From Bacteroidaceae bacterium (GTDB lineage: Bacteria > Bacteroidota > Bacteroidia > Bacteroidales > Bacteroidaceae), in assembly GCA_017503065.1 (NCBI GenBank), contig JAFVTT010000034.1, positions 17,614-81,613 of the forward strand: 64,000 nucleotides of DNA. The letters run 5' to 3'. Positions 6,407-62,157 of the stretch are shown piece by piece (position 1 is the first letter of the stretch; each line of letters begins with the position of its first letter). Made by a program: the position numbers and the translations under genes. The notes under the pieces are model-generated. The model had not been told where the DNA came from and made no database searches. It was given only the letters and a program-made list of their open reading frames with translations.

Positions 6407-6466
6407 TGTTGCCGTATCAACACTGCTCTGTTGATACGGCAACAGCGTTCTGTTGATAGTACAACA
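6407..6466. repeat. 60-bp triple-palindrome element, copy 1
   Basis: Three 16-bp units with 5-bp inverted arms, TGTTG-N6-CAACA, lie at 6407-6422, 6429-6444 and 6451-6466. They are separated by 6-bp spacers CTGCTC and GCGTTC, an exact 22-bp period. Unit 1 is the reverse complement of unit 2. The element lies in the gap where the DUF3098 gene and tRNA-Leu converge. Related copies are at 51169 and 62098, and a diverged one at 22183. Confidence 0.85.
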
Positions 6467-6553
6467 AAAACTTGTCCTCACTGAGCGTGTGGCATGATAT
6501 CGGCCAGAGAGAAAAGAAAAGAGAAGTCGCAATGACTCCTCTTTTCTGTTTCG

Positions 6554-6635
6554 TACGCCTGATAGGACTCGAACCTACACGCATCGCTGCACCAGATCCT
6601 AAGTCTGGCGTGTCTACCAATTCCACCACAAGCGC
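6554..6635 (-). tRNA. tRNA-Leu, anticodon UAG
   Basis: 82 nt class II tRNA. The acceptor stem GCGCTTG pairs with CAGGCGT with G-U pairs at two positions. The anticodon stem CCAGA/TCTGG encloses loop CTTAGGA, giving anticodon TAG. There is a long variable arm and the T-loop TTCGAGT. CCA is not encoded. A TACCTTTG promoter element lies just upstream. Confidence 0.95.
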
Positions 6636-6648
6636 AACTTAGATGGTG

Positions 6649-6656
6649 CAAAGGTA
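6649..6656 (-). promoter_or_regulatory. -7 promoter element of tRNA-Leu
   Basis: TACCTTTG on the minus strand lies 13 bp upstream of the tRNA 5' end. No clear TTTG is seen at the -33 position. Confidence 0.55.
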
Positions 6657-6756
6657 CGCCTTTTTTTTGAATTATGCACCATAAGGCCCCATATATCTAT
6701 TCTGAATGAACTATATTTCTCCTCAGGATATGCAATCCCAGGCCTATGTATAAGAA

Positions 6757-6790
6757 AAGGACAGGCGCCATTGTGCAGGCATCTGTCCTT
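6757..6790 (-). terminator. Terminator of the HU-like gene
   Basis: Arms AAGGACAG and CTGTCCTT with internal pairing GCC/GGC form a hairpin directly downstream of the HU stop. It is followed on the minus strand by TTCTTAT. Confidence 0.6.
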
Positions 6791-6812
6791 CTTTATCCGA
6801 AAGCGGAGGAGA

Positions 6813-7106
6813 TTATTCCTTTACTTCCTTCACCTCGGCCACTCTGCTCTGGAACTCGGGGCAGGGCTTGAAGGCGGGGATGTAGTGCTCGGGCACGATG
6901 ATAGTCTCCTTCTTGGTGATGTTGCGGGCAGTTTTGGCGGCACGCTTCTTCAGGTTGAAGGTACCGAAACCACGCAAGTACACGTTCTCGCCGCTTGCCA
7001 TGGTTTCCTTGATGATATTCATGAGGGCCTCAACAGAAGCCAGGGCGGTAGGCTGGTCGATGCCGGTTTCGTGAGAAATGGCACGTACAAGTTCTTGCTT
7101 TGTCAT
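6813..7106 (-). CDS. HU/IHF-family DNA-binding protein
   Basis: 97 aa basic nucleoid protein that bends or coats DNA as a dimer. The N-terminal helices (MTKQELVRAISHETGI) and the arm YLRGFGTFNLKKRAAKTARN...IPAFKPCPEF fit the HU/IHF fold. The position of the usual RNPxTG turn reads RNITKK. The DNA-intercalating proline is therefore missing, as is common in Bacteroidota members. A strong TTTG-N20-TACCTTTG promoter is seen upstream and a hairpin terminator downstream, so it is probably monocistronic and highly expressed. Confidence 0.93.
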   Translation of the reverse strand: MTKQELVRAISHETGIDQPTALASVEALMNIIKETMASGENVYLRGFGTFNLKKRAAKTARNITKKETIIVPEHYIPAFKPCPEFQSRVAEVKEVKE

Positions 7107-7180
7107 AATTATGTGTCTTTATGTGTTGTTATAGTGTTATTCGCAGGGATTATTTGCTGACTTTTAGTCTTTTGCGGGTG

Positions 7181-7212
7181 CAAAGGTACGAATAAGCGAG
7201 CGATTTTCCAAA
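7181..7212 (-). promoter_or_regulatory. Promoter of the HU-like gene
   Basis: On the minus strand, TTTG (7212-7209), 20 bp, then TACCTTTG (7188-7181) form a near-ideal Bacteroidota primary promoter. The spacer ends in CTCGCTTATTCG, a word repeated at two other sites. Confidence 0.75.
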
Positions 7213-7319
7213 TTTATTTGAGAAAATCCGAGCGGGAGTACCTTAGACGATATGTCAGAGGTACGAATAAGCGAGCGAAATAGCAAATAAAGCACAGAAA
7301 GCGGACTTGGCATGTCCGG

Positions 7320-7475
7320 CTATTCCTCTTCGGTCAGTGCCTCGTAGACTTGTATGGCTTTGTCCTTGATGTTGTAGCGGTAGTAGGCATAGTCGAGGTA
7401 GGCCCACAAGTACACCAGCACTACGAAGCAGAGCCAACCGGTCAGTATGGGGTGTTCTTTTATCAGGTCAAGCAT
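7320..7475 (-). CDS. 51-aa single-pass membrane protein in the CobW operon
   Basis: A short frame starts at the ATG at 7475, 18 bp after the CobW stop, and ends at a TAG at 7320. It encodes MLDLIKEHPILTGWLCFVVL followed by VYLWAYLDYAYYRYNIKDK and an acidic tail ending LTEEE. One hydrophobic helix (about residues 10-29) precedes a Tyr-rich juxtamembrane stretch. I know no named family. Tight placement behind a COG0523 GTPase suggests a membrane anchor, partner or metal-related accessory protein (inference). An overlapping frame at 7255-7437 is less likely because it lacks the operon spacing and a sensible composition. Confidence 0.65.
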   Translation of the reverse strand: MLDLIKEHPILTGWLCFVVLVYLWAYLDYAYYRYNIKDKAIQVYEALTEEE

Positions 7476-7493
7476 ATTCTTTATGTCTTTAGT

Positions 7494-8768
7494 TTAATCC
7501 GTGAGGCATGCCTCCAGTTTCTGGCGCAGGTCTTCGATGTCCATGTGTATGCCTATGAAGACGAGTTTCTGCATGCGGTCGCCATAGGTGGGGTCCCAGT
7601 CGTCCTGCAGCCTCTGGTCACGTGCCAGGATGGGCTTGAGTTCCTCCTCGGGCATGGTGGCATACCATTGTCCTGCCTGGTGCAGGGACACCTGTCGGCC
7701 GGCCTGTTCGAAGAGGTAGCACATGTGTTCCTCGCCCTTGAAGTAGCACATGCCCTTGGCGCGTACGATGCTCTTGGGCCATTGGCGTGCCACGAAGTGG
7801 TCGAAGTTGCCAAGGTTCAGAGGGCGGCGGCTGTAGAACACCCATGTGCTGATGCCATATTCGTCGCCATGCGGATGTTCGGCATCGTGATGATGTCCGC
7901 AACAGCAGTGCCCGTCTTCATCGTGGTGATGATGGTGTCCGCAATGCGGGCATGCTTCCCCATCTTCCTCGTGGTGATGGTGATGATGGTGCTCGTCTTC
8001 GTGATGGTGATGCTCCTCCTCATGGTGGGGTTTGTCCAGTTCCTCAATCCATTTTGCCGAGGTGGCAACGGTTTCGAAGTCGAACATGCCGGTGTTGAGC
8101 AGGAGGTCGAGATCCACATCGCAGAAGTTGCACGGGATGATGTCGGCCTTGGGCTGTATGGTGTGCAGTATGGAGCGTATGCGTCCCAGTTCCTCCTCCG
8201 TTACCTCATCGGCCTTGTTGAGCAGTATGGTGTTGCAGAACTCTATCTGCTGGATGACGAGGTTGGCAATGTCGTCCTCGGCTATTCTATTGCCTGTAAG
8301 GTCCAGGCCGCATCCAAACTCGTCCTTCAGGCGGAGTGCATCCACCACGGAGCAGATGCAGTCCAGGGTGGGGATGTGCGTTATGGGGCCTGCGTTGAAG
8401 GTGTTGAGGTCCAGGGACTGCTCGTATGCACAGATGGTCTGTGCTATGGGGGAGGGCTCGCAGATGCCTGAGGCCTCGATGACAATGTAGTCGAAGCGTT
8501 CTGACTTCATCAGGTCGCGGAGTTGCAGGACGAGGTCCATCTTCAGCGAGCAGCAGATGCACCCGTTCTGCAGGGCCACCAGAGAGTCGTCCTGCTGGTC
8601 AACAATGCCGCCCTTCTGTATGAGGTCGGCATCGATGTTCACCTCGCCGATGTCGTTTACGATGACGGCAAAGCGTATACCTCTTTTATTATTAAGTATG
8701 CGGTTCAGCAGGGTGGTTTTGCCGCTGCCCAGATAACCGGTTATGAGTAATACTTTTGTCTCTTTCAT
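7494..8768 (-). CDS. CobW/COG0523-family GTPase metallochaperone with a large His-rich insert
   Basis: 424 aa. G1 P-loop GYLGSGKTT (11-19), the COG0523 metal-binding CxCC motif (C70-I-C72-C73), a G3-like region near IEASGICEP (98-105) and NKAD (184-187) are all visible. Residues 248-300 form a His/Glu/Asp/Cys-rich segment with runs of up to seven His and CPHCG and CCCG clusters. The CobW C-terminal domain follows (SRRPLNLGNFDHFVA...). Family knowledge: these G3E GTPases deliver or store metal, usually Zn, for metalloproteins. The sequence fits a Zn- or Ni-type chaperone more than cobalamin synthesis. It is third in the operon DUF1846-DUF4250-cobW-small membrane protein, with a 3-bp gap to the gene before. 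Confidence 0.9.
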   Translation of the reverse strand: MKETKVLLITGYLGSGKTTLLNRILNNKRGIRFAVIVNDIGEVNIDADLIQKGGIVDQQDDSLVALQNGCICCSLKMDLVLQLRDLMKSERFDYIVIEASGICEPSPIAQTICAYEQSLDLNTFNAGPITHIPTLDCICSVVDALRLKDEFGCGLDLTGNRIAEDDIANLVIQQIEFCNTILLNKADEVTEEELGRIRSILHTIQPKADIIPCNFCDVDLDLLLNTGMFDFETVATSAKWIEELDKPHHEEEHHHHEDEHHHHHHHEEDGEACPHCGHHHHHDEDGHCCCGHHHDAEHPHGDEYGISTWVFYSRRPLNLGNFDHFVARQWPKSIVRAKGMCYFKGEEHMCYLFEQAGRQVSLHQAGQWYATMPEEELKPILARDQRLQDDWDPTYGDRMQKLVFIGIHMDIEDLRQKLEACLTD

Positions 8769-8771
8769 TTT

Positions 8772-8951
8772 CTACCAGAACTTGTTGGTGTCGGGGTTGT
8801 ACTCCATGCCTATGCTGCCCAGTGTGGTGGTGAGTACCTCCTTCTCTATGTTCATGTCCTCGCACAGGGCATCCAGAGTGGGGTAGTAGTCCCTGAGTTT
8901 CATGTTGATGAGGCTCATAAGCATGAAGGGGTCGCGTGGAAGGTCTTTCAT
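8772..8951 (-). CDS. DUF4250 family small protein (59 aa)
   Basis: The frame starts at ATG 8951 and ends at TAG 8772. It encodes a 59-aa soluble protein with MKDLPRDPFMLMSLINMKLR at the N-terminus and YNPDTNKFW at the end. This is the PFMLLSxINMKLRD...NKFW pattern of DUF4250. Function is unknown. The gene is 4 bp downstream of the DUF1846 stop and 3 bp upstream of cobW, so all are probably on one mRNA. Confidence 0.85.
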   Translation of the reverse strand: MKDLPRDPFMLMSLINMKLRDYYPTLDALCEDMNIEKEVLTTTLGSIGMEYNPDTNKFW

Positions 8952-8955
8952 CTTC

Positions 8956-10419: not shown

Positions 10420-10422
10420 AGA

Positions 10423-10485
10423 ATTATCTCGCTTATTACCTTTATAACAAGATACAAAGGTACGAATAAGCGAGATAATTACAAA
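10423..10485 (-). promoter_or_regulatory. Promoter of the DUF1846-cobW operon, framed by a perfect 15-bp inverted repeat
   Basis: On the minus strand TTTG (10485-10482), 19 bp, TACCTTTG (10462-10455). The arms ATTATCTCGCTTATT (10423-10437 on the plus strand) and AATAAGCGAGATAAT (10465-10479) flank the -7 box. They could form a leader hairpin or operator half-sites. Confidence 0.7.
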
Positions 10486-10524
10486 AAAGTATGCTCTTAT
10501 TTTTTCTGTTAGAGCCAAGTTTTT

Positions 10525-20483: not shown

Positions 20484-21133
20484 CAAGGATATTTACAATA
20501 CTTCTGGTTGCAGTGTTCATGGCACTGCCTTCCAGAGCTCAGGACACTCCCCTGCGGAAATACGACGTGGCTCCGTGGTCTTACGAGCACGTCTTCGTGG
20601 ATTATGTCAAGGACTACCGTTCGCATCTGATAAACTCCAATGGCGGACAGTACGTGGGGCAGGTCGACGACCGCTATGCCTTGTATGGTTATGGCCAGTA
20701 TATCAACGATTCCGGAGATATTGTCATAGGCAAATTCCGTCAAGGAGAACTCATGCAGGGAATTACTTTGGGCAAGGACAACGCTACGGTTGGAAGCAAG
20801 GGTTTTTATTGCAGTTATAGCCTGACGTCAGGCAAGTTGCAATACATCAGCATGCACGGAGGTCGCGAACTCCTGGAAGTGACAGATAGCACCGACTATA
20901 GTTTTATGTCGCAAACCTTTGCCAATGGTGACAGGTATGTGGGCGAGTTCTATAAGGGCAAACGTCATGGCCTGGGCATATACTATTATGCCGACGGTGG
21001 CTTGTGGTATGGAAGTTTTGTCAATGACATACGTTGCGGTTTCGGTGCGTGGTTCAAGTTGGACAACGATATGGTCATCGGTCTTTGGGAGGGCGAGGAC
21101 GAGCGCAGAAGGGTATATGTGCCCCTAAGATGA
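20480..21133 (+). CDS. Secreted MORN-repeat protein
   Basis: 217 aa when started at the ATG that overlaps the nadD stop. A signal peptide (MTRIFTILLVAVFMALPSRA) is cleaved after SRAQ. MORN-like repeats with YGQYINDSGDIVIGKFRQGE, DRYVGEFYKGKRHGLGIYYY and LWYGSFVNDIRCGFGAWF follow. MORN repeats bind membranes or partner proteins; the function here is unknown. An in-frame extension into nadD would hide the signal peptide and is rejected. It is co-transcribed with nadD and followed 7 bp later by an oxidoreductase gene. Confidence 0.8.
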   Translation: MTRIFTILLVAVFMALPSRAQDTPLRKYDVAPWSYEHVFVDYVKDYRSHLINSNGGQYVGQVDDRYALYGYGQYINDSGDIVIGKFRQGELMQGITLGKDNATVGSKGFYCSYSLTSGKLQYISMHGGRELLEVTDSTDYSFMSQTFANGDRYVGEFYKGKRHGLGIYYYADGGLWYGSFVNDIRCGFGAWFKLDNDMVIGLWEGEDERRRVYVPLR

Positions 21134-21140
21134 TAGTGGT

Positions 21141-22193
21141 ATGGTAAATATTTCTCTCATAGGTCTTGGCCAGCGGGGACAGGTCACACTCGAGCGCCTT
21201 GGGCGTGTGCCGAATGCCAATGTCATGGTCAAGTGCGACGTTGAGACGGATTGGCGCGAAGCCGCCACCCATCCCGATGTGGATCTTGTGTGGATATGCA
21301 CCCCATGGGAATGGCATATGCGTATGGCCGTAACTGCCATGCAGGCAGGAAAGGACGTGGCCCTGGAGGTACCTGCCGCCATGACGGTGGCAGATTGCGA
21401 GACTCTGGTCAGGGTGGCACGCGAGACAGGCAGGCATTGCGTCATGCTGGAGAACTGTTGCTACGACACGTGGCACCTCGGAGTCAGGGAGATGGTTCGC
21501 CGAGGCATGCTCGGACGCATCAAGCACCTTGAGGGGGCTTACGCCCATACCGTGCCCGAAGGCTGGATGCGTGCCCATGGGCGCAGGCAGGGAGGCAACC
21601 CTTACCCCACGCATGCTTTGGGCCCCATGTGCCAGTTGTTGCCGGAAGGGGACACTCTGGATTATCTCGTTTCCCTGTCGTCGCCCATTCCCGGCGACCA
21701 CACTAACACCTCGTTGATTCGCTCCGTTTCAGGCGTGAGCATGCTTTTGCACTATGACATTTCCACTCCACGCCCCTATAGCCGTATGCAGACGGTGTGT
21801 GGCACATTGGGCTTTTTGCAAAAGTATCCCCTGCCTACCGTGTGTCTGGAGTCCAAGGATGGCAATGTCGAACTGAGTGGCGATGAGGCCGTAAAATACG
21901 TCGAGGGGTTCATTCCGCCGTATTTCAAAAGTATGATAGACGAAGGGAAGGCCATCGGTGTCCCCAACGTGATGAACTATATGATGGACCGCCGTCTGCT
22001 GGATTCCATCGAGAAGATACGCGAGGCGCGTACCGCGGGATGTCCAGAACCGTCGTGCCTGGATATGGACGTCTACGATGCGGCTCTTTGGTCGTCGGTC
22101 ATAGAACTCACCGACCTGTCTGCACGTCAGGGATCCGTTCCGGTAATGTTCCCCCGATTTGTCATCGCTTACGACAAGACAAAATCATCGTGA
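21141..22193 (+). CDS. Gfo/Idh/MocA-family oxidoreductase, GH109-like
   Basis: 350 aa. The Rossmann start ISLIGLGQRGQVTLERLG and the motif ICTPWEWHMRMAVTAMQAGK show NAD-dependent Gfo/Idh architecture. NPYPTHALGPMCQLLP...LDYLVSLSSP closely resembles the GH109 alpha-N-acetylgalactosaminidase signature (YPTHGLGP...). It is shorter than typical GH109 enzymes and has no export signal. A cytoplasmic sugar oxidoreductase or NAD-dependent glycosidase is likely, exact substrate unknown. The last codons and stop lie inside the first unit of the 22-bp repeat array. Confidence 0.75.
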   Translation: MVNISLIGLGQRGQVTLERLGRVPNANVMVKCDVETDWREAATHPDVDLVWICTPWEWHMRMAVTAMQAGKDVALEVPAAMTVADCETLVRVARETGRHCVMLENCCYDTWHLGVREMVRRGMLGRIKHLEGAYAHTVPEGWMRAHGRRQGGNPYPTHALGPMCQLLPEGDTLDYLVSLSSPIPGDHTNTSLIRSVSGVSMLLHYDISTPRPYSRMQTVCGTLGFLQKYPLPTVCLESKDGNVELSGDEAVKYVEGFIPPYFKSMIDEGKAIGVPNVMNYMMDRRLLDSIEKIREARTAGCPEPSCLDMDVYDAALWSSVIELTDLSARQGSVPVMFPRFVIAYDKTKSS

Positions 22194-22242
22194 CGACAAG
22201 GGCGAATCATCGTGATGACGAGGGCGAATCATCGTGATGACA
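22183..22242. repeat. 22-bp-period triple repeat (diverged copy 4 of the 60-bp element)
   Basis: AATCATCG starts at 22183, 22205 and 22227, an exact 22-bp period. Each unit has a TCATC-GT-GATGA or similar core. The two spacers are both AGGGCG. The geometry equals that of the TGTTG/CAACA elements but the sequence differs. It overlaps the 3' end of the oxidoreductase gene. Confidence 0.8.
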
Positions 22243-22294
22243 AATTATGTATGTCATGATAAAGACAACCGGTCTTCAACATCAGCCGAAATAC

Positions 22295-22344
22295 TACCAG
22301 CAGGGGATGCTTTCATTTGCATGTGAAAGCATCCCCTGCTGGTA
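22295..22344. terminator. 21-bp perfect inverted repeat at the rpoD 3' end
   Basis: Perfect 21-bp arms (22295-22315 and 22324-22344, core CAGGGGATGC / GCATCCCCTG) enclose an 8-nt loop. They lie in the tail-to-tail gap 17 bp from the rpoD stop. No T-tract follows on either strand, so a role as RNA end-protector is as likely as intrinsic termination. Confidence 0.6.
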
Positions 22345-22360
22345 TGGTATGGATAGGGTC

Positions 22361-23221
22361 TTAACCCAGATATGAGCGCAGTATGCCGGTCTTGTTGGCA
22401 TTGCGGAGTTTGCGGATGGCCTTTTCCCTGATTTGGCGCACACGTTCTCTGGTCAGGCCGAAGCGGTCGCCTATTTCCTCCAGGGTCATTTCCGGCTGTG
22501 CAATGCCGAAACTCATCTCAATGATGTCACGTTCGCGCTCGTTGAGAATCTCCAGCGCACGTGAAATCTCCATCTGCAGACTCTCGTTTATGAGGGTGTG
22601 GTCGGCGGCCGGAGCATCGGTGTTCTCCATTACGTCCAGAGGACTGTTGTCCTCGCCCTCCACGAAGGGTGCATCCACACTGACGTGGCGTCCGCTGGCA
22701 CGCAGGCTGTCGTTAATCTTCTCGGGAACCTCGTTTACCAGTTCTGCCAACTCCTCAGGGCTGGGCTTGCGCTCGAACTCTTGTTCGAACTTGGTGATGG
22801 CCTTGCTTATCTTGTTTACGGCGCTGACCTGGTTCAGGGGCAGACGCACGATGCGGCTCTGCTCTGCCAGAGCCTGCAGGATTGTCTGGCGAATCCACCA
22901 TACGGCATAACTGATGAACTTGAAACCGCGGGTTTCGTCGAACTTCTCGGCGGCCTTGATGAGGCCGACATTGCCCTCGTTGATTAGGTCGGGGAGACTG
23001 AGACCCTGGTTCTGGTACTGCTTTGCCACAGACACCACAAAGCGCAGGTTGCTCTTTACCAAAATGTCCAATGCCTGGCGGTCGCCTTTGCGGATGCGCT
23101 GGCTGAGTTCAACTTCCTCTTCTACTGTCAGAAGTTGCTCGCGTCCGATTTCCTGAAGATACTTGTCCAGTGACTGGCTGTCGCGGCTGGTAATGCTCTT
23201 GGTGATTTTTAGTTGTCTCAT
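22361..23221 (-). CDS. rpoD: Primary sigma factor RpoD (Bacteroidota type)
   Basis: 286 aa, the usual short Bacteroidota primary sigma without region 1.1. Region 1.2 ([16 protein letters not shown]), region 2 with [18 protein letters not shown] and [13 protein letters not shown], region 3 ([12 protein letters not shown]), and region 4 HTH ending [19 protein letters not shown] are complete. It recognises TTTG/TAnnTTTG promoters, many of which are visible in this window. A promoter with TAGCTTTG lies upstream and a long hairpin follows. Confidence 0.97.
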
Positions 23222-23290
23222 TATGCCTTTTTTAATTGTTTGTCATCCTGTTGTTCCGGCGAAAGTGCCGAAACTGCATATTTCAGCGCG

Positions 23291-23321
23291 CAAAGCTACG
23301 CTTTTTTATTGTAATTGCCAA
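23291..23321 (-). promoter_or_regulatory. Promoter of rpoD
   Basis: TAGCTTTG (23298-23291 on the minus strand) with TTG 20 bp upstream (23321-23319). The leader is about 65 nt. Confidence 0.6.
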
Positions 23322-23403
23322 GGAAAAGACGGCGAAATGTTAAAAAGAGGCCTCGAATTCAAAGTATTTTGGACATCCGAGACGTTGATAAACCATAATT
23401 TCT

Positions 23404-23411
23404 TACCTTTG
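23404..23411 (+). promoter_or_regulatory. -7 promoter element of glyS
   Basis: TACCTTTG lies 20 bp upstream of the glyS ATG. The -33 element is unclear (TTG at 23385 is too close). Confidence 0.5.
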
Positions 23412-23431
23412 CGCGAAAAATATTTACGATA

Positions 23432-24976
23432 ATGGCACAACAAGAAGACGTTTTCAAGAAAATCATTTCCCATTGCAAGGAATATGGCTTTGTTTTCCCC
23501 TCAAGCGACATATACGACGGTCTGGGCGCAGTGTACGACTATGGCCAGAACGGTGTTGAACTGAAGAACAACATCAAGCAGTACTGGTGGCAGTCCATGG
23601 TATTGCTTCACGAGAATATCGTAGGTATCGATGCCGCTATTTTCATGCACCCCACCGTATGGAAGGCCAGCGGACACGTGGATGCTTTCAACGATCCCCT
23701 GATTGACAACAAGGACAGCAAGAAGCGCTACCGCGCCGACGTGCTGATAGAGGATCAGTTGGCAAAGTACGACGAGAAGATTGACAAGGAAGTGCAGAAG
23801 GCCGCCAAGAAGTACGGCGAGGCTTTCAACGAAGCAGAGTTCCGTGCCACCAATGCACGCGTGCTGGAGAACCAGCAGAAGCGCGATGCCTTGCACGAGC
23901 GCTTTGCCAAGGCTCTGAACGACGGTGACCTGGCCGAACTCCGCCAGATTATTCTGGACGAGGAGATAGCATGCCCCATCAGCGGCACCAGAAACTGGAC
24001 AGAAGTACGTCAGTTCAACCTGATGTTCTCCACCGAGATGGGTTCCACCGCCGATGGCGCCAACAAGGTGTACCTCCGTCCCGAGACCGCTCAGGGTATC
24101 TTCGTAAACTACCTGAACGTGCAGAAGACCGGACGCATGAAGTTGCCCTTCGGCATAGCACAGATAGGCAAGGCCTTCCGCAACGAGATCGTAGCACGCC
24201 AGTTCATTTTCCGCATGCGCGAGTTCGAGCAGATGGAGATGCAGTTCTTCGTTAAGCCCGGCACAGAACTGGATTGGTTCGGCCAGTGGAAGCAGACACG
24301 TATGGCATGGCACCAGGCCCTGGGCTTCGGTGCTGACAACTACCGTTTCCACGACCACGACAAGTTGGCCCACTATGCGAATGCCGCCACCGACATCGAG
24401 TTCCACATGCCCTTCGGTTTCAAGGAGGTGGAAGGTATCCACTCTCGCACCAACTTCGACCTGTCCAGCCATGCCAAGTACAGCGGCAAGAAGATAGAGT
24501 ACTTCGACCCCGAGACAAACGAGTCATACACTCCGTACGTTATCGAGACTTCTATCGGCGTTGACCGCATGTTCCTGTCCATCATGTGCCATAGTTATGA
24601 GGAGCAGCAGTTGCCCGACGGACAGACACGTACCGTACTGCACCTGCCCGCAGCCTTGGCTCCCGTCAAGTTGGCGGTGTTCCCCCTGACCAAGAAAGAC
24701 GGCATGCCCGAGAAGGCTCAGGAAATCATGAACGACCTGCGCTTCCACTTCAACTGCAAGTACGAGGAGAAGGACCAGATAGGCAAGCGCTACCGTCGTA
24801 TGGATGCCATCGGCTGTCCCTTCTGCGTTACCGTTGACCAGCAGACTTTGGAGGACAACACCGTCACCCTGCGTGAGCGCGACAGCATGGAGCAGCGCCG
24901 TGTGCACATCTCTGAACTCCGCGGCATCATCGAGGACCAGGTGAGCATCACCAGCCTGCTGAAGAAGTTGCTCTAA
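23432..24976 (+). CDS. glyS: Glycine-tRNA ligase, eukaryote-like alpha2 class II
   Basis: 514 aa single-chain enzyme of the alpha2 type rather than the bacterial alpha2beta2 type. The class II motifs are seen in RPETAQGIFVNYLNVQ...PFGIAQIGKAFRNEI (motif 2 region) and VIETSIGVDRMFL (motif 3). The C-terminal anticodon-binding domain starts near APVKLAVFPLTKKDG. It attaches glycine to tRNA-Gly. It has its own promoter and the next gene begins 42 bp after its stop. Confidence 0.96.
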   Translation: MAQQEDVFKKIISHCKEYGFVFPSSDIYDGLGAVYDYGQNGVELKNNIKQYWWQSMVLLHENIVGIDAAIFMHPTVWKASGHVDAFNDPLIDNKDSKKRYRADVLIEDQLAKYDEKIDKEVQKAAKKYGEAFNEAEFRATNARVLENQQKRDALHERFAKALNDGDLAELRQIILDEEIACPISGTRNWTEVRQFNLMFSTEMGSTADGANKVYLRPETAQGIFVNYLNVQKTGRMKLPFGIAQIGKAFRNEIVARQFIFRMREFEQMEMQFFVKPGTELDWFGQWKQTRMAWHQALGFGADNYRFHDHDKLAHYANAATDIEFHMPFGFKEVEGIHSRTNFDLSSHAKYSGKKIEYFDPETNESYTPYVIETSIGVDRMFLSIMCHSYEEQQLPDGQTRTVLHLPAALAPVKLAVFPLTKKDGMPEKAQEIMNDLRFHFNCKYEEKDQIGKRYRRMDAIGCPFCVTVDQQTLEDNTVTLRERDSMEQRRVHISELRGIIEDQVSITSLLKKLL

Positions 24977-25018
24977 TCCCTATTCCATATCCACCCCTTA
25001 AAGCGAACCGGAGAGTTG

Positions 25019-25690
25019 ATGAAGAAATATCTGTATATATTGTTTGCGGCTGTACTGGGTTTGGTGTCTTGTAGCGAGACAGACAACACCTATAATCCCT
25101 ATGAGGATTGGCAAAGCCGCAATGCCAAGTGGTATGAAGACACCGTGCAGGTGGCCCGTCAGGCCATAGCACAGGCAAAGGCCGAGCATGGAGAAGATTG
25201 GGAGGAGCACTGCCAATGGCGCATGTACAAGTCCCTCTTCAGGTCAACGGCCTCCGTAGGTCCTGTTACGGACAGCATCTGCATCCGCATCCTGGAGCGT
25301 GGCACAGATCCTTCAGGGAAAGGTTCGCCTGCCTATAACGACTCCATCCATATCAGTTATAGAGGTTGGCTAATGCCCACCTACAACTATACGGGCAACG
25401 GTTCGGAGATGGGCATGGTTCAAGACGTCTTTGATACCAGTTATTACGGAGAGTACAATCCGGAAACCTCGGCTCCCACTCTGATGAGCGTGCGCAATCT
25501 GATAGAAGGTTTCAGCACCGCCATCCAGTATATGGTAGAGGGCGACGACTGGATGATTTTCATCCCCTACACCTTGGCATACGGCACTGAGGGAAGCGGA
25601 AAGATTCCCGGTTATTCCACCCTCCAGTTCCGTGTCCACATGGTACGCTGGTATGAAAGCGGTACAGGCGTACCGGGCGGATGGGAGTAA
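25019..25690 (+). CDS. FKBP-type peptidyl-prolyl isomerase lipoprotein
   Basis: 223 aa from the ATG at 25019 (a TTG two codons... one codon earlier is a poorer start). The lipoprotein signal ends LGLVSC-SETD. The C-terminal half has FKBP features: ISYRGWLMP, VFDTSYY, LIEGFSTAIQYMVEGDDWMIFIPYTLAYG and the closing strand STLQFRVHMV. It acts as an envelope-anchored foldase (family inference). It is downstream of glyS and ends in a bidirectional hairpin terminator shared with asd. Confidence 0.88.
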   Translation: MKKYLYILFAAVLGLVSCSETDNTYNPYEDWQSRNAKWYEDTVQVARQAIAQAKAEHGEDWEEHCQWRMYKSLFRSTASVGPVTDSICIRILERGTDPSGKGSPAYNDSIHISYRGWLMPTYNYTGNGSEMGMVQDVFDTSYYGEYNPETSAPTLMSVRNLIEGFSTAIQYMVEGDDWMIFIPYTLAYGTEGSGKIPGYSTLQFRVHMVRWYESGTGVPGGWE

Positions 25691-25738
25691 AACGTAAGGG
25701 AAATTCCTAAGCGACATAACAAAAAAACAATCATAAAT

Positions 25739-25774
25739 AAAGGAGGCCATCTCGATGTGAAGATGACCTCCTTT
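25739..25774. terminator. Bidirectional terminator between the FKBP gene and asd
   Basis: Arms AAAGGAGG (25739-25746) and CCTCCTTT (25767-25774) with inner pairing CATCT/AGATG form a strong hairpin in a tail-to-tail gap. On the minus strand it is followed by an AT-rich tract with seven Ts. Confidence 0.8.
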
Positions 25775-25822
25775 GTTGTTGTTGTGTGCTACGCAATGTT
25801 ATGCCATACGACGCTCATTGCC

Positions 25823-26839
25823 TTACCCCTGGAACTTGGGGTCGTTCTGTATGAGCCATTCGGCTATCTGTACGGCGTTGAGGGCGGCACCCTTCTTTAT
25901 CTGGTCGCTCACCAGCCAGAAGGTGAGGCCGTTGGGGTTGCTGATGTCCTTGCGGATACGGCCCACGTAGACATCGTCGCATCCCTCCAGGAAGAGGGGC
26001 ATGGGGTATTCCTTCTTCTCGGGCTCGTCCTGAAGGCGCAGGCCGTTGCCGTTGCGTACAGCCTCCTTGAACTCCTCCACGCTTACGGGACGCTCTGTCT
26101 CTGCCCAGATGGCCTCAGAGTGGCAACGCAGAGAGGGCACGCGAACGCACATTGCAGAGCAGTCGGCATCGGTGTGCATGATCTTCTTTGTCTCGTGGAA
26201 CATCTTCATCTCCTCCTTGGTGTAGCCGTTGTCGGTGAACACGTCAATCTGGGGGATTACGTTGAAGGCCAACTGGTATGCGAACTTCTCTACGGTGGGT
26301 TTCTCGCCGGCCAGCACCTGGCGGTACTGCTCGAACAGTTCTGCCATGGCGGCGGCGCCGGCACCGCTGGCAGCCTGATAACTGGCCACGTGGATGCGGC
26401 GGATGTGGCTGATGTTCTCCAGAGCCTGCAGGGCCACTACCATCATGATGGTGGTGCAGTTGGGGTTGGCTATGATGCCGCGGGGGCGGTCCAGTGCGTC
26501 CTTGGCATTGCACTCGGGCACTACCAGGGGCACGTCCTCGTCCATGCGGAATGCGCTGGAGTTGTCTATCATCACGGCACCATGCTTGGTGATGGTCTCG
26601 GCAAACTCCTTGCTCGTGCCGCCACCGGCGCTGGTGAAGGCAATGTCCACGCCCTTGAAGTCATCGTTGTGCTGGAGGAGTTTCACTTCTATCTCCTTGC
26701 CACGGAAGGTGTATTTGGTTCCGGCGCTGCGCTGGCTGCCGAAAAGCAACAGTTCGTCAATGGGGAAGTTGCGTTCATCCAGAACGCGCAGGAATTCCTG
26801 ACCTACGGCACCGCTGGCGCCTACAATCGCTACTCTCAT
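25823..26839 (-). CDS. asd: Aspartate-semialdehyde dehydrogenase
   Basis: 338 aa. The NADP-binding [14 protein letters not shown], the catalytic-Cys region [17 protein letters not shown], and the C-terminal [15 protein letters not shown] substrate loop are complete. It reduces aspartyl phosphate for lysine/diaminopimelate, threonine and methionine synthesis. It is transcribed alone from a TAATTTTG promoter, divergent from the antiporter gene. Confidence 0.96.
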
Positions 26840-26885
26840 CGTTTATCTTTTTTTGTTTTGATTACTCTGTTTGACAATTTGCGTG

Positions 26886-26893
26886 CAAAATTA
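26886..26893 (-). promoter_or_regulatory. -7 promoter element of asd
   Basis: TAATTTTG on the minus strand, 46 bp upstream of the asd ATG. No clear -33 element. Confidence 0.45.
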
Positions 26894-26947
26894 CGGAAAA
26901 TATTATAAATAAGGTGTACTCTTGCCTATAAATAGCACAAAAAACAT

Positions 26948-26955
26948 TACCTTTG
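26948..26955 (+). promoter_or_regulatory. -7 promoter element of the antiporter gene
   Basis: TACCTTTG ends one base before an ATG at 26957. Transcription would start at about 26959-26962, so that ATG is unlikely to be used and the ATG at 26978, preceded by AGGAC, fits better. Confidence 0.55.
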
Positions 26956-26977
26956 CATGAAATTATACACACAGGAC

Positions 26978-29005
26978 ATGCTTCAGATACTGACATCCAT
27001 ACACATGCCGATGGCATTGGTCACAGACCCCACGTGGGTGTTCTTCGTGGTACTGATGATTATCCTGTTTTCTCCTATCCTGCTCCGCCGCCTCCGCACG
27101 CCCCACATCATAGGCTTGATATTGGCCGGTGTGATGATAGGCCAGCATGGCTTCAACATCATAGAGAGGGACAGGAGTTTTGAAATCTTCGGTCAGGTGG
27201 GAATATACTTCATCATGTTCCTGGCCGCACTGGAGATGAACATGGGCAGTGTGCACCAGTATGGGCGCAAGGGCTTCCTGTTCGGCATGATAACCTACTG
27301 CGTGCCGTTTGCCCTCGGTTTCCTGGCCGCGCACTATCTGCTTGGCTTCGGTGCCATCACGTCGGTCCTGCTCAGTTGTATCCTTGCCTCGCATACGCTG
27401 ATAACGTATCCCATAGTGAGCCGTTTCGGTTTGTCGCGGCATCCTGTGGTGACCGTTTCCGTGGTGGCCACGGCGGTGGCCCTGTTCGTGGCCCTGCTTG
27501 TGCTGGCCATTGCGGTAGGTTCGTTGCAGGAGACAGACTGGAGGTTCTGGGCGTTCTTTACGGTGAAGTGCCTGGCATACGGGGCGTTCATCATATATGC
27601 CTATCCCAGGATAGGGCGCTGGTTCCTGCGCAGGTACGACGAACCGATAATGCAGTTCATCTTCATCCTTTCATTGGTTTTCCTGAGTGCCGCCCTGGCG
27701 GAACTGGCAGGATTGGAGGGATTGTTGGGAGCGTTCCTCGCAGGTCTGTCGGTAAACAGGCTCATCCCCCGTACCTCGCCCCTCATGTCGTACATCCAGT
27801 TTGTGGGCAATGCCCTGTTCATCCCCTATTTCCTGATAGGCGTGGGCATGCTCATCGACCTTAGGGTACTATTCGGCGACATGGATACAATATGGATTGT
27901 GGTGGTGATGGTACTGGTGGGCACGTTCTCCAAATGGCTGGCTTCCTATGTCATGAGCCGCTTCTCCAAGGACCTGAAGGGAGGTTCCCTGCTGATGTTC
28001 GGCCTTACCAACGCGCATGCCGCAGGTGCTTTGGCCATAGTGATGATAGGCACCGACCCGAAAGTGAACCTGATGGATGCCTCGGTGCTCAACGGCACGG
28101 TGATGCTGATACTCTTCTCTTGCATAATAAGCAGTTTTGCCACCAGCGAGGGAGCACGGCGCCTGGCCCTTGTGGACACGGACACCGAGGAGAACCAGGG
28201 TGCATGGCACGGCAAGTGCCTGGTTACGTACAGCCAGCCGGACAGTGTGGGACTTCTGACCCAGTTGGCACTGATAATACGAAATTCCCGTATCCCCGAC
28301 AGTCTGATGGGCCTTACCGTCACTCTCAACGACTACGACGGGGAGGCACAAGGCTACCGCGAGGCCCAGCGCATGCTGGAGGAGGCCACCTCGGTGGCAT
28401 CGGCTGCGGAGGTTGACCTGAAGACCCTCTCGCGCCTGAGCACCAACATAGCGGGCGGTATCCTGCACACCATACGCGAATACGATTGCGGTGAGGTGAT
28501 GGTATGCCTTACCGACCGCACCACGGGCATGCCCAAGTCCAGCCTCGGACCGGTCATAGACCATGTGCTGGAGGGAACAAACCGCGAGGTCATGGCCGTG
28601 CGCCTTATTGTCCCGCCAGGCACCTTGCACAAGGTAATCGTTGCCGTTCCGCAGAAGGCAGAGTACGAGGCAGGCTTCTACAAGTGGCTGGAGCACGTCT
28701 GCCGTATGGGAGAGCAACTGGATTGCCAGTTGGAGTTCCATGCCCACCCCGACACCATGCCCAACATAAAGAGTTACATGTGGCGCTACCATGTGTCCCT
28801 GCGTGCCGAGTACATTGAGATGGCCCTGTGGACAAAGATCATCTCCCTGGCACAAAGGGCCGGTTCCGACGAGATGGTGGTATTCGTCAGCGCACGACCC
28901 GGTTTCATCTCCTATAAGGGTTCGTTCGCAGGCCTGCCCCTGATGATACACAGATATTTCAGTCATACCAGCGTAATGCTGCTATACCCCGACCAGTGGT
29001 CATGA
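26978..29005 (+). CDS. Cation:proton antiporter (CPA2/KefB-like) with cytoplasmic C-terminal domain
   Basis: 675 aa from the ATG at 26978, or 682 aa from 26957. The N-terminal ~400 residues form a Na+/H+ exchanger domain with about 12 helices. Landmarks include [20 protein letters not shown], the AALEMNM segment, [10 protein letters not shown] and [20 protein letters not shown]. The C-terminal ~250 residues are soluble and resemble tandem universal-stress-type domains. It exchanges Na+ or K+ for H+ across the inner membrane (ion not determined). Its stop overlaps the lolD start by ATGA, which suggests coupled translation although the functions seem unrelated. Confidence 0.87.
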
Positions 29006-31177: not shown

Positions 31178-31810
31178 CTTTCATTGACTGGTGTTTCGCT
31201 TCAACGAACAAAGTGGATGATGATGCCAAGCATTATGCATGGATGTCGTGAGGATGATTTTTACCGCTATTGGGCACTCATTTTGTCGCTATTAGCCGTT
31301 CATCTAACCGCTATTAGCTCTTCGGCGAGGCACTATTGGCGTATGTAAAAAGGCTATCATACGTAGACATGCGGGACCACAGTCGGCAGATTCTTGTTGG
31401 TGGTAGTGAGGGAAAACGTTTGGATATGTGCATAATTGGATAAATTGTTATATATCGTTCTTATTCAAAACTTCTGAGTATTCTTAATCCATTGATACGC
31501 TTTCTGAAGTATAAATCGCAGTGTCATGTTCCATATCTTAGACTGTAAGTGTGCATTCATAGATACAGAATTGAGATTAATTTGTAATTAAAACTTCAAA
31601 GATTTATCGGTTTACAATTAGTTAATTCTTCATGATTTATTGGGTAACGGTGTAACCATTTAGCTATCGGCATAGAATGAACAATAGACATATCATCAAA
31701 GATTTTAAATATTGAATATAGTTTGCTGCTATTCAATTTGAATATGGTGTAGTAAAAACTTTGCACCTAATAGGTAGTTGGATGCCTTATGCTTTATTTT
31801 TTATTGAGTA
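31178..31810. other. AT-rich gene-less stretch
   Basis: No gene is seen on either strand. The sequence becomes increasingly AT-rich toward 31700 and contains no recognisable promoter, tRNA or transposase remnant. It ends at the stop of the outer-membrane protein gene. Confidence 0.5.
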
Positions 31811-50940: not shown

Positions 50941-51014
50941 GGCGGGATAGCTCAGCTGGTTAGAGCGTCGGATTCATAATCCGAAGGTCATGGGTTCAAG
51001 TCCCATTCCCGCTA
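50941..51014 (+). tRNA. tRNA with CAU anticodon (elongator Met; Ile2 not excluded)
   Basis: 74 nt cloverleaf. Acceptor GGCGGGA/TCCCGCT, D-arm GCTCAGCTGGTTAGAGC, anticodon stem TCGGA/TCCGA with loop TTCATAA, T-arm ATGGG-TTCAAGT-CCCAT, discriminator A. The G-U first acceptor pair and overall sequence fit elongator tRNA-Met of Bacteroidota. Confidence 0.93.
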
Positions 51015-51019
51015 CAGGA

Positions 51020-51168: not shown

Positions 51169-51228
51169 TGTTGCCGTATCAACACGGCTCTGTTGATACG
51201 GCAACAGGACAGTGTTGATACGGCAACA
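51169..51228. repeat. 60-bp triple-palindrome element, copy 2
   Basis: Units TGTTG-N6-CAACA at 51169-51184, 51191-51206 and 51213-51228 with spacers CGGCTC and GGACAG. Units 2 and 3 are identical and unit 1 is their exact reverse complement; units 1 and 2 equal those of copy 1. It lies between tRNA-Met and the convergent DUF4252 gene. Confidence 0.88.
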
Positions 51229-57398: not shown

Positions 57399-57407
57399 TT
57401 GCGTCAC

Positions 57408-58716: not shown

Positions 58717-58720
58717 ACTT

Positions 58721-60607
58721 ATGGCCACAACAGAGAAGAACAAGAAGAAATACGAACTCCACAAGCGCAAGTATGTGTTGGGAGGCATTGCGTGCGTAAT
58801 CATTTTCACATATATCCTCAGGCTCTTCTCCTTGCAACTGCTCAGCGAGGACTTCAAGGAGAGTGCCGACAGCAATGCCTTCCTGAAGCACATACTGTTC
58901 CCGGCCCGTGGTGCCATAACCGACCGCAACGGCAAGTTGTTGGTGTACAACCAGCCTGCCTACGACATAATGGTGGTGATGAAGGAACAGGTGGGCGTGG
59001 ATACCGTTGACCTGTGCAATACCCTTGGCATCACTCCCGAGTGGTACAAGCGCCGCATGGATGAAATACGCGACCCACGGCGCAATCCCGGCTATAGCCG
59101 ATACACCCAGCAGTTGTTCATGAGCCAGTTGTCGGCCGAGGAGTTCAGTACCTTCCGCGAGAAACTCTTCTGCTATCCCGGTTTCTATATACAGAAGCGA
59201 AGCATACGCCAATACTCCTATCCCTATGCTGCACACGTCCTTGGCGATGTGGGTGAGGTGGGACCGAAAGACATAGAGCGTGACGGCTATTACCGTAGCG
59301 GTGACTATATAGGCAAACTTGGCATAGAGCGTCAGTACGAGGAACAGTTGCGTGGTGAAAAGGGTGTGGAGATACTTCTACGCGACTCGCGTGGACGTAT
59401 CAAGGGACGTTATCAGAACGGCAAGTTCGACGAACCTCCCGTTCCCGGCAAGAACCTCACCCTGTCCATAGATGTGGAGTTGCAGGCTCTTGGCGAGCGC
59501 CTTATGACGGGCAAGAAGGGTGGTATCGTGGCCATAGAACCCTCCACGGGCGAGATACTTTGTATGGTCAGCAGCCCCACCTACGATCCCCGTATGATGG
59601 TGGGACGCCAGCGCGGTGCCAACAACAACCTCCTTTCACGCAATCCCCACAAACCCTTGTTGAACCGTGCCATAATGGGACAGTATCCTCCCGGTTCCAC
59701 CTTCAAGACCACTCAGGCACTAACCTTCCTGCAGGAAGGCATCATCACGCCGCAGACGCTTTTCCCGTGTAGCATGGGCTTCCGTTTCAAGGGCCTTACG
59801 GTGGGATGCCATGCTCATGGCGCCCCCATTCCCCTGGTGCCATCTTTGGCCACTTCGTGCAACAGTTACTATTGTTGGGGACTCTTCCAGATGTTCTCCA
59901 ACCGCAAGAAGTATGCCACCGTGCAGGATGCCATGACCAGATGGAAGGACTATATGGTTTCCATGGGTTTCGGCTATGCCCTCGGCGTGGACCTCCCGGG
60001 CGAGAAGCGTGGCATGATTCCCAACGCTCCGTATTACGACAAGGCATACCGCGGGTCGTGGAACGGCCTTACCGTCATTTCCATTTCCATAGGACAGGGC
60101 GAGGTGAATGCCACACCCTTGCAGATTGCCAACCTTGGTGCCACCATAGCCAACCGCGGTTGGTTCATCACTCCCCATGTGGTAAAGGACATCCAGGACG
60201 AGGATTTGGATACGTTGTACACAACCCGTCGCTACACCATGGCAGAACGCTCCAATTACGAATACGTGGTGCAGGGCATGCGCCAGGCGGTGCTTGCCGG
60301 TACGTGCCGTGCTGCCAATTCTCCACACTACGAGGTTTGCGGCAAGACGGGCACGGCACAGAATCCTCACGGTCAGGACCATTCGGCCTTCATGGGGTTC
60401 GCACCGATGAACGACCCCAAGATAGCCATCTGCGTATATGTGGAGAACGGTATTTGGGGGGCTACGTTCGGTGTGCCGATAGGTTCCCTGATGATGGAAC
60501 AGTACCTGACCGGCGGTCTCTCGCCGGAGAGTGAGGAGAAAGCAAAGACGTTTGAGGAACGACATCTAATATCCGTAGACAATGCCTTCAGCAAGCAAGA
60601 AAAATAA
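58721..60607 (+). CDS. mrdA: Penicillin-binding protein 2 (elongasome transpeptidase)
   Basis: 628 aa. N-terminal membrane helix (about 22-39), dimerisation domain (ARGAITDRNGKLLVYNQPAYDI) and transpeptidase domain with SxxK as STFK (in QYPPGSTFKTTQAL), SxN as SCN (TSCNSYYCWG) and KTG (VCGKTGTAQN). It cross-links lateral-wall peptidoglycan with RodA. Its 3' end overlaps rodA by 26 bp. Confidence 0.96.
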   Translation: MATTEKNKKKYELHKRKYVLGGIACVIIFTYILRLFSLQLLSEDFKESADSNAFLKHILFPARGAITDRNGKLLVYNQPAYDIMVVMKEQVGVDTVDLCNTLGITPEWYKRRMDEIRDPRRNPGYSRYTQQLFMSQLSAEEFSTFREKLFCYPGFYIQKRSIRQYSYPYAAHVLGDVGEVGPKDIERDGYYRSGDYIGKLGIERQYEEQLRGEKGVEILLRDSRGRIKGRYQNGKFDEPPVPGKNLTLSIDVELQALGERLMTGKKGGIVAIEPSTGEILCMVSSPTYDPRMMVGRQRGANNNLLSRNPHKPLLNRAIMGQYPPGSTFKTTQALTFLQEGIITPQTLFPCSMGFRFKGLTVGCHAHGAPIPLVPSLATSCNSYYCWGLFQMFSNRKKYATVQDAMTRWKDYMVSMGFGYALGVDLPGEKRGMIPNAPYYDKAYRGSWNGLTVISISIGQGEVNATPLQIANLGATIANRGWFITPHVVKDIQDEDLDTLYTTRRYTMAERSNYEYVVQGMRQAVLAGTCRAANSPHYEVCGKTGTAQNPHGQDHSAFMGFAPMNDPKIAICVYVENGIWGATFGVPIGSLMMEQYLTGGLSPESEEKAKTFEERHLISVDNAFSKQEK

Positions 60608-62063
60608 GGAACAGAGCATCATCCGCAATTTGGACTGGTTCACGTTGTTCATCTTCGTGGTCCTTGTTGCCATGGGTTGGATGAGCGTGTGCGGCGCCAG
60701 TTACGACTTCGATCAGGGAACCCAGTTGCTGGACTTTTCATCCCGAAGCGGCATGCAGATGGTGTGGATTCTCACTTCCCTTGTGCTGGGCAGTGTCATC
60801 CTGTGTGTGGACGACCGCCTTGTGGAGAGTCTATCCTATATTATATATATAGGTTTCATAGTCCTGCTGTTTGTCACGCCCATGCTGGCCCACGACATCA
60901 AGGGCAGTCTGTCGTGGATAAAGATAGGCCCGTTCAGTCTTCAGCCGGCAGAGTTTGCCAAGTTTGCCACTGCCCTTTGTGTCGCCAAGGTGATAAGTTC
61001 CTTCAATTTCGACCTTTCCCGTTGGCGCGACCTCATTATTAGCACCATCCTTGTTCTTCTTCCCATGGGGCTTATCGTCATGCAGAAGGAGACGGGTTCG
61101 GCTCTGGTCTATCTTGCTTTCTTCCTGATGTTCTATCGCGAGGGCATGATAGGCAGTATCCTCTTTGCAGGAGCCGCGGCGGTGTTCTACTTCGTGGTGG
61201 GAGTCAGGTTTGCCGATGCTCCCTTGTGGGACATACCCCAAATCAGCATGGGCGAGTTCCTCGTTCTGGCCGGCATACACCTGTTTTCGGCCGGCATGAT
61301 GTGGGTGTACACCTCGCTGAGGAAACCGTTCCTGCAGGTTCTGCTCTTCGGTATGTCGGCCTATGTGCTGGCCGTCCTGTATGCCAAGTATCTGATTCCC
61401 GTCAATACCTGTTGGGTGCAATGGATTGTGCTTGTCGTTATGGTGGGCTATCTCTTCTACCTGTCGGTGCGCGAACAGTTGCTTTCATACGCGCTCATAG
61501 CCCTGTTTGCCATAGGCAGTACCGGTTTCTTCTATTCCGTAAACTATGTGCTCAGCGATGTGCTCCAACCGCATCAGCAGACGCGCATCCGTGTTCTCCT
61601 TGGATTAGAGGACGACCCCAAGGGAGCCGGCTATAATGTCATCCAGGCAAAGATTGCCATCGGTTCGGGCGGATTGCATGGCAAGGGTTTCCTGAACGGA
61701 ACCCAGACAAAGTTGAAATACGTGCCCGAGCAGGACACCGACTTTATCTTCTGCACAGTGGGAGAGGAACAGGGGTTTGTGGGTAGTGCCCTGGTGCTGG
61801 CTATTTTCCTCGTCTTCATCCTCAGACTCATACATCTTGCCGAGCGCCAACCACTCCGCTTCGGCCGTGTCTATGGGTATTGTGTCATGAGCGTTTTCCT
61901 GTTCCACGTCTTCATCAACGTGGGCATGGTGCTGGGCTTAACCCCCGTCATCGGCATCCCGTTGCCTTTCTTCAGTTACGGCGGTTCCTCCCTGTGGGGC
62001 TTCACCATCCTCCTTTTCGTTTTCCTGAGGATAGATGCAGCCCGCAACCGCATGCAGCATTAA
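60582..62063 (+). CDS. rodA: SEDS peptidoglycan glycosyltransferase RodA
   Basis: 493 aa with about ten helices. SLSWIKIGPFSLQPAEFAKF, the extracytoplasmic loop GKGFLNGTQTKLKYVPEQDTDFIF with the essential Asp region, and TPVIGIPLPFFSYGGSSL are the SEDS signatures. It is longer than the usual ~370-400 aa, with extra hydrophobic segments between about 190 and 320. It polymerises lipid II together with PBP2. Last gene of the shape operon. Confidence 0.96.
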   Translation: MPSASKKNKEQSIIRNLDWFTLFIFVVLVAMGWMSVCGASYDFDQGTQLLDFSSRSGMQMVWILTSLVLGSVILCVDDRLVESLSYIIYIGFIVLLFVTPMLAHDIKGSLSWIKIGPFSLQPAEFAKFATALCVAKVISSFNFDLSRWRDLIISTILVLLPMGLIVMQKETGSALVYLAFFLMFYREGMIGSILFAGAAAVFYFVVGVRFADAPLWDIPQISMGEFLVLAGIHLFSAGMMWVYTSLRKPFLQVLLFGMSAYVLAVLYAKYLIPVNTCWVQWIVLVVMVGYLFYLSVREQLLSYALIALFAIGSTGFFYSVNYVLSDVLQPHQQTRIRVLLGLEDDPKGAGYNVIQAKIAIGSGGLHGKGFLNGTQTKLKYVPEQDTDFIFCTVGEEQGFVGSALVLAIFLVFILRLIHLAERQPLRFGRVYGYCVMSVFLFHVFINVGMVLGLTPVIGIPLPFFSYGGSSLWGFTILLFVFLRIDAARNRMQH

Positions 62064-62097
62064 GCGCCTCCCTCCTTTGTCGTGGCGGTTCATCCTT

Positions 62098-62157
62098 TGT
62101 TGTACTGTCAACAGGACAGTGTTGTCGTATCAACAGACCTTTGTTGTCGATGCAACA
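62098..62157. repeat. 60-bp triple-palindrome element, copy 3
   Basis: Units TGTTG-N6-CAACA at 62098-62113, 62120-62135 and 62142-62157, spacers GGACAG and GACCTT. The arms are conserved while the central six bases differ between units. It lies in the gap where rodA and gldH converge. The first spacer GGACAG equals one in copy 2. Confidence 0.88.

Follow-up and report, generated by a model that had tools for sequence, protein, structure and literature searches.

A 64,000-nucleotide stretch of DNA from a Bacteroidaceae bacterium (contig JAFVTT010000034.1, hereafter the window) carries, between its genes, short tandem arrays of palindromes repeated every 22 bp. The family in which they were first noticed, F1, is built of the unit TGTTGN6CAACA and is one family of a wider class of 22-bp palindromic tandem arrays, which share the period and the palindromic symmetry and form multi-copy families specific to a species. 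We give about even credence to the explanation that the arrays are dispersed elements resembling repetitive extragenic palindromic (REP) sequences, composed of pseudo-palindromic sites stacked at 22 bp and read as double-stranded DNA by a protein. Other genomes and their loci are referred to by G and L numbers.

Stacked palindromes in the window and in related genomes

The window contains nine exact matches to TGTTGN6CAACA, and all nine lie inside three arrays of three units each, set at 22-bp steps; by chance a mean of 0.09 is expected, and none of 100 shuffles reached nine. This bears out the original prediction, which had placed three such units in each of the segments 6407-6466, 51169-51228 and 62098-62157. 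A further array, described there as a copy of the same layout at 22183-22242, does have the 22-bp period, but in place of the 6-bp spacers and the 16+6 layout its arms lie 2 bp apart, with 10 bp between units. The arrays of the window are as follows.

6407..6466, no strand assigned: F1 array, 3 units of TGTTGN6CAACA at a 22-bp period, with TTTT/AAAA flanks
51169..51228, no strand assigned: F1 array, 3 units, in the gap between tRNA-Met (50941-51015, + strand) and a gene on the - strand
62098..62157, no strand assigned: F1 array, 3 units, 34 bp past rodA, the next gene being on the - strand
22167..22250, no strand assigned: 22-bp array outside F1 with a TCATC-GT-GATGA core, about 3.5 units, convergent with a gene for a sigma-70-type sigma factor
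31265..31318, no strand assigned: weak additional array at lag 22 in a 995-bp convergent gap, its 22/30 lag matches equalling the threshold

The genome nearest to the window is G001, which has 36% of the sampled 31-mers in common with it and is 97% identical to it over 14.5 kb with the second and third F1 copies. A genome-wide search for further copies, as had been suggested, yields 45 exact two-unit matches in G001 and none for a backward-pattern control; they form 22 arrays, to which one with a single mismatch is added. These 23 arrays have three units in 20 cases and four in the other 3. As predicted, the arms are fixed and the central six bases vary: mismatches occur at 3 of 720 arm positions (arrays with at least one perfect unit and at most two mismatches per unit), and the 80 exact motifs of the window and the G001 stretches contain 36 distinct hexamers up to reverse complement, the nine motifs of the window repeating G001 loci. 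When up to three mismatches are allowed in G001 as a whole, 45 two-unit pairs have none, 4 have one, 0 have two and 1 has three, with 0 in the control; decayed F1 copies are therefore nearly absent. In 763 kb of G001, 69 of 71 F1 motifs are within arrays. The flanks carry a weak motif only, reaching about -17, and no clean empty site was found. The copies at 6407 (L058) and 51169 (L055) are letter-identical in G001, the copy at 62098 has two substituted bases there, both within the third unit and one belonging to an arm, and no inversion or deletion was seen at any of the three. Among the viruses of IMG/VR there are 0 exact F1 pairs. An apparent avoidance of palindromic hexamers within the unit disappeared when unique units were counted (full palindromes: 1 observed, 2.4 expected, P=0.28).

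Arrays independent of the F1 sequence were sought as 30-bp segments in which 22 or more positions match when the sequence is compared with itself at a given lag. In the window and the G001 stretches chosen for F1, 31 places are found at lag 22, against 0-3 at lags 19-21 and 23-26. The loci of named relatives, 25 in all, give 13 places at lag 22, among which L036 repeats the three of L035, and at most 3 at the same neighboring lags. One stretch from each of 20 congeners contains 24 places at lag 22, 0 at lag 20, 2 at lag 23 and 15 each at lags 14 and 21, the last two consisting mainly of 7-mer simple repeats (by eye). Twenty other families of the order have 3 lag-22 places, two of them runs of N, and other genera of the family show lag 22 in 5 of 17 stretches, some within open reading frames (ORFs) or non-palindromic. 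The 400 kb of G001 selected without regard to F1 have 11 places at lag 22, 11 each at lags 14 and 21 and 9 at lag 18; when a repeated inverted repeat is required, 6 remain at lag 22, 2 at lag 23 and at most 1 at every other lag. In the congeners this requirement leaves 8 places at lag 22 and 3 at lag 21, with no other lag exceeding 2; at lag 22 it leaves 1 in other genera of the family and 0 in other families. The signal is largest in G009, whose 396 kb contain 50 places at lag 22 and at most 5 at any other lag from 14 to 33.

Palindromic symmetry beyond column-permuted controls characterizes 58 of 79 lag-22 arrays, 3 of 11 lag-23 arrays and 6 of 19 lag-21 repeats. The lag-22 arrays are unrelated in sequence and include GGGACGCGTCCC, AAGACGCGCGTCTT, CGCCGCGTGCGGCG, AACACGTT, CAGTACTC-TCGTGA-GAGTACTG and others; family F3 has the layout CAGTACTC-6-GAGTACTG and a 23-bp family the layout CAGTCCTC-7-GAGGACTG. 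The exact 22-bp period first described stands within a family, but the class also includes some 23-bp and a few 21-bp members. Other short tandem repeats occur beside it, namely 7-bp simple repeats (TTCAATC-like, GAATGAA-like) in L091-L110 and L151-L170, the apparent source of the peaks at lags 14 and 21, and, in G001, 10-bp repeats of the CCTAGGA type at lag 20 (L060 2116-2195, L151 3373-3429).

Species-specific families and their place between genes

Each family is largely restricted to one species or a few. The F1 pattern was found in one of 61 genomes among relatives and in one of 121 drawn from the family, both times G001, so that, searched for in related genomes as the original prediction had proposed, it is absent from 60 of them. 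For the GGCG-N11-CGCC family, exact two-unit matches number 77 in G001, 0 in the 60 other genomes and 0 in the control. Matches to the AACACGTT family, counted on both strands in the 61 genomes, number 213 in G009, 162 in G010, 17 in G006 and at most 11 in seven more, the backward control giving one match each in G016 and G036.

Orthologous loci reveal a turnover of units. Full-length matches to rodA exist in 18 congeners, and in five of these (G001, G006, G009, G013 and G004) the gene is followed by an array; these arrays comprise at least four different sequences; in the other 13 no array was detected in the 330 bp behind the gene. A long run of AAAGCCCCCGCCGC-like repeats follows the rodA match in L088 (G003). 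At the sigma-factor locus, the window has 3.5 units of 22 bp, L017, in a sister genome, has 4.5 units of 23 bp and G001 about 1.5 units (by eye), and G006 and G009 carry AACACGTT arrays. From the window to L017 the arms change from ATCATC/GATGAC to GTCACC/GGTGAC, both altered together (by eye). The array at L017 5175-5290 is orthologous to 22167-22250 of the window with a 23-bp instead of a 22-bp period; the end of the + strand gene runs into it, and its last codons therefore differ.

Gene calls come from a simple ORF scorer and ARAGORN, not from an annotated record. The array at 6407-6466 lies in a gap bounded by a short + strand ORF and tRNA-Leu (6553-6635, - strand), the - strand gene beside 51169-51228 has a match to GFO_1090 below the cut-off, and the array at 22167..22250 adjoins the 3' end of an oxidoreductase-like gene, whose matches are likewise below the cut-off. 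Once tRNA-Leu and tRNA-Met count as genes, all three F1 arrays lie in convergent gaps. Arrays had been claimed for four of seven tail-to-tail gaps; four clear arrays are indeed present, but the gaps of at least 60 bp number six, tRNAs counted, and a fifth is weakly occupied. The lag-22 scan of the window (at least 22/30 matches) found no array outside convergent gaps. An Rfam scan of the window returned nothing but the two tRNAs at the gathering threshold, and a plasmid search with one 8-kb stretch of it (21000-29000) gave no match. For the protein encoded at 26957-29002, the closest named relatives come from metagenome-assembled genomes labelled Bacteroidaceae or Prevotellaceae, many of them from the guts of deer, cattle, sheep and buffalo.

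Confinement to tail-to-tail gaps holds true only within the window. The 23 F1 arrays of G001 are distributed over 8 convergent, 14 codirectional and 1 divergent gaps. The third copy is scored as codirectional there because an insertion in G001 supplies the next gene: about 740 bp (L055 15537-16276) lie between this copy and the following terminator and are absent from the window (62170-62184). Two small ORFs lie within them on the + strand and resemble a HigB/HigA-type toxin-antitoxin pair (judged by eye, with no family search). In stretches not chosen for F1, there are 13 arrays per 91 convergent, 17 per 339 codirectional and 4 per 121 divergent gaps (convergent versus rest, p=0.0014; divergent versus rest not significant, p=0.20). 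These counts leave out L035; with it they become 16/93, 17/344 and 4/123, the three arrays added being its lag-22/23 segments. Two unrelated 22-bp arrays are adjacent at L035 13690-13935, within one 1.2-kb convergent gap. In G009, where gaps of at least 60 bp were counted, the figures are 11 arrays per 26 convergent, 23 per 68 codirectional and 3 per 32 divergent gaps (divergent versus rest, p=0.0034), and among the 23 codirectional arrays 20 are closer to the stop codon upstream. Since the G009 stretches were picked on contigs with hits, their array rates are estimates on the high side; the differences between gap types should nevertheless persist. Tabulated beyond the window, then, convergent gaps are enriched in arrays, but they are not their exclusive place.

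Proposed recognition as DNA and alternative explanations

The tests made so far lack the strand signature of RNA. On the sense strand of 34 codirectional arrays, G-T mispairs number 45 and A-C mispairs 49 (41:47 at a stricter and 75:69 at a looser cut), and in G009 they number 17 and 19. RNA controls behave otherwise: G-T:A-C is 14:3 in 40 terminator-like hairpins of the same DNA, arrays excluded, and 13:1 in the acceptor stems of 18 tRNAs, and the arrays differ from both (Fisher p=0.016 and 0.0014, respectively). In G009, the 112 units show near-fixed columns (A at -5, C at -3, T at -1) that alternate with variable ones (-4, -2, +10). The units were located via the AACACGTT core; the constancy of the core is therefore no evidence, and the flank columns alone count. 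Flank pairs 2-7 show no covariation, with Watson-Crick pairs at, for example, 36 versus 32.8 expected, 48 versus 49.0, 71 versus 72.4 and 46 versus 54.1. The core is asymmetric, with AC at its center, and the clusters in codirectional gaps divide evenly, the core pointing along the gene direction in 10 and the opposite way in 10. The G009 stretches also contain 14 exact cores that stand singly, outside any array. We favor recognition of double-stranded DNA over RNA pairing because of the fixed arms with drifting interiors, the scarcity of covariation, the equality of G-T and A-C, and the independence of core polarity from transcription. A dimeric protein bound side by side, one of two readings offered originally, thus gains indirect support from the fixed arms, the little covariation and the direction-independent core, the protein itself being still putative.

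In the explanation we propose, the elements consist of a few sites, mostly three, that follow one another in the same orientation every two helical turns (22 bp); they lie between genes, often near the 3' end of one, and each species has families of its own. A trans-acting dimeric or multimeric protein would contact the fixed positions on double-stranded DNA; neighboring copies of it would line up along one face of the helix, and their stacking would set the 22 bp. Species differences could then arise through turnover of the recognition sequence together with its partner. Slippage and gene conversion probably shape the arrays too, and the arrays may have spread by transposition through some enzyme or by gene conversion.

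Several observations weigh against this explanation. No protein has been found for the arrays, and the several families per genome (F1, F2, F3 and others) would require several proteins or one broad reader. The dominance of three units could result from the spread of a master copy, and the 23-bp and 21-bp members weaken the strict two-turn argument. The codirectional arrays outside G009 show a weak 3' bias, with 10 of 17 closer to the stop codon upstream. Flank pair 1 of G009 has a slight Watson-Crick excess (108 versus 106.1, standard deviation 0.4). In F1, the b1:a3 triplets are complementary in 49 of 60 cases versus 30.2 by chance, and a long hairpin may form through this pairing; it is carried by CGA:TCG (7), TAT:ATA (5) and TGT:ACA (1) in 20 arrays examined by eye, possibly related copies. 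A run of five T stands at the sense 3' edge of 5 of 34 codirectional palindromic arrays, one of them F1 (L049) and four in G013 and G026. Finally, sigma-factor arrays are altered with compensation, for example CTTAAC/GTTAAG in G006 versus CATAAC/GTTATG in G009; such a concerted change of units is predicted by slippage or gene conversion, but not by a protein of fixed specificity.

This last point leads to neutral or selfish palindromic minisatellites, in which a 22-bp seed would grow by slippage and be homogenized by template switching or gene conversion. We regard this as rather unlikely, and equally so its corollary that the arrays persist where they are harmless, outside promoters and genes. 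The differing unit numbers and jointly altered units at the sigma-factor locus agree with it, as do the different sequence families behind rodA in 5 of 18 congeners, and convergent enrichment is expected from harmless insertion; yet it explains neither the near-invariant arms beside drifting interiors at 23 loci nor a 22-bp period common to families of unrelated sequence.

More doubtful is the proposal that fast-evolving proteins, each species having its own, coat the stacked sites where genes end and serve, whatever their orientation, as roadblocks or insulators between transcription units, a bacterial counterpart of protein-bound terminator arrays. Its further element, a recognition code that changes from one close species to the next under a constant 22-bp stacking, we consider no less doubtful.

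RNA hairpin arrays at transcript 3' ends, serving as terminators or as blocks to 3' exonucleases and acting in both directions between converging genes, were the second reading of the original prediction, and they now appear improbable. The codirectional 3' bias in G009 and the sense-edge T runs speak for them, as does the F1 array L042 13451, which has a T run on the minus strand and was caught by the terminator screen. Against them stand the mispair counts, which lack the G-T bias of the RNA controls, a core polarity independent of transcription, and six of seven G009 flank pairs without covariation. Moreover, a run of five T follows only 2 of the 23 F1 arrays of G001 on either strand, and many F1 arrays are preceded by T runs and followed by A runs. 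A check on whether arrays replace terminators found very few terminators anywhere with the detector used. Core-site arrays of a tyrosine recombinase, with inverted 8-bp arms around a free crossover of 6-7 bp (8+6+8=22, 8+7+8=23), would suit the hypervariable hexamer between fixed arms and the layouts of F3 and the 23-bp family, but they are highly improbable, given that no inversion or deletion was seen between the window and G001 at three F1 arrays and that stacked 3-unit arrays are not known as a substrate of such enzymes.

The carriers are gut bacteria related to Bacteroides and Prevotella, with many short stacks between genes whose spelling varies by species. A reader or spreader of such arrays would affect the ends of many of their genes: counted over gaps of at least 60 bp in the G009 stretches, there are 34 AACACGTT arrays for every 100 codirectional gaps and 42 for every 100 convergent ones (high estimates). 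A constant 22-bp architecture with contact-like fixed bases and a spelling of each species' own points to a fast-evolving DNA-recognition system and offers ready baits for finding it. Should the arrays be passive repeats, they would still explain why gene 3' ends vary and might be used as strain markers.

Comparison with known systems

In operator arrays of repressors and nucleoid proteins, inverted half-sites are stacked at intervals of whole helical turns; their contacts are fixed, and the spacers are free to vary. Fixed half-sites and independent drift elsewhere are likewise found in the present arrays, one of seven G009 flank pairs deviating slightly; these arrays differ in lying mostly in convergent and codirectional gaps and in reaching tens to more than 100 copies.

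Of the repeats published from the Bacteroidales, those nearest to the present arrays are BrickBuilt and the 22/23-nt repeats of Porphyromonas gingivalis, and PINSR. The BrickBuilt MITE of P. gingivalis (PMC4596501) is comparable in its intergenic tandem 23-nt repeats without spacers, present in 19 copies. It differs in possessing a leader and a tail with IS5-like terminal repeats and in running to as many as 22.8 units, all of a single family; no word beginning with 'palindrom' occurs in the main text of that paper, and the element is set apart here by its description, not by its sequence. The same source mentions other 22/23/41-nt tandem repeats in P. gingivalis and, in the part drawn on, gives no locations for the 22- and 23-nt repeats that it cites from strain W83. 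PINSR of Prevotella intermedia and P. nigrescens (PMC4755523) is also a lineage-specific intergenic repeat, with 177-184 copies and without terminal inverted repeats, and its function is given as unknown; it differs in its length of 188 bp and single consensus, and the section on it describes no 22-bp palindrome array.

REP and BIME elements (GTAG and CGTC families; PMC3733652), as far as this source was drawn on, are short intergenic palindromes, species-specific, in many copies and of several types per genome, located mostly in convergent and unidirectional gaps near 3' ends. The present arrays, too, are dispersed, intergenic, many-copy and species-specific palindromes; they differ in their strict head-to-tail 22-bp stacking and in having no excess of G-T, the frequency of GT pairs in REP stems having been taken as support for an RNA function (PMC3733652). 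No GTAG/CGTC tag at the stem foot stands out in the column counts of F1 or G009, no dedicated scan having been run. A co-occurring transposase was sought as the Y1 transposase RAYT (PF01797), with 0 matches in G001, G006, G009, G013, G022 and G026, which are 85-89% complete, so that a RAYT may have been missed. Matches occur in 11 of 30 genomes searched, including the array carriers G004, G028, G036 and G071. We therefore rejected REPs driven by RAYT as an account of the class, given six array-bearing genomes without a match, though four other carriers have one.

In the open-access literature, to which coverage was confined, the matches listed include no description of the class. The earlier statement that no described family has this layout is thus nearly right, except that REPs and the 22/23-nt tandem repeats of P. 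gingivalis come close. The closest known systems are REP/BIME palindromes and these P. gingivalis repeats, and the present arrays combine a REP-like distribution with an operator-like anatomy.

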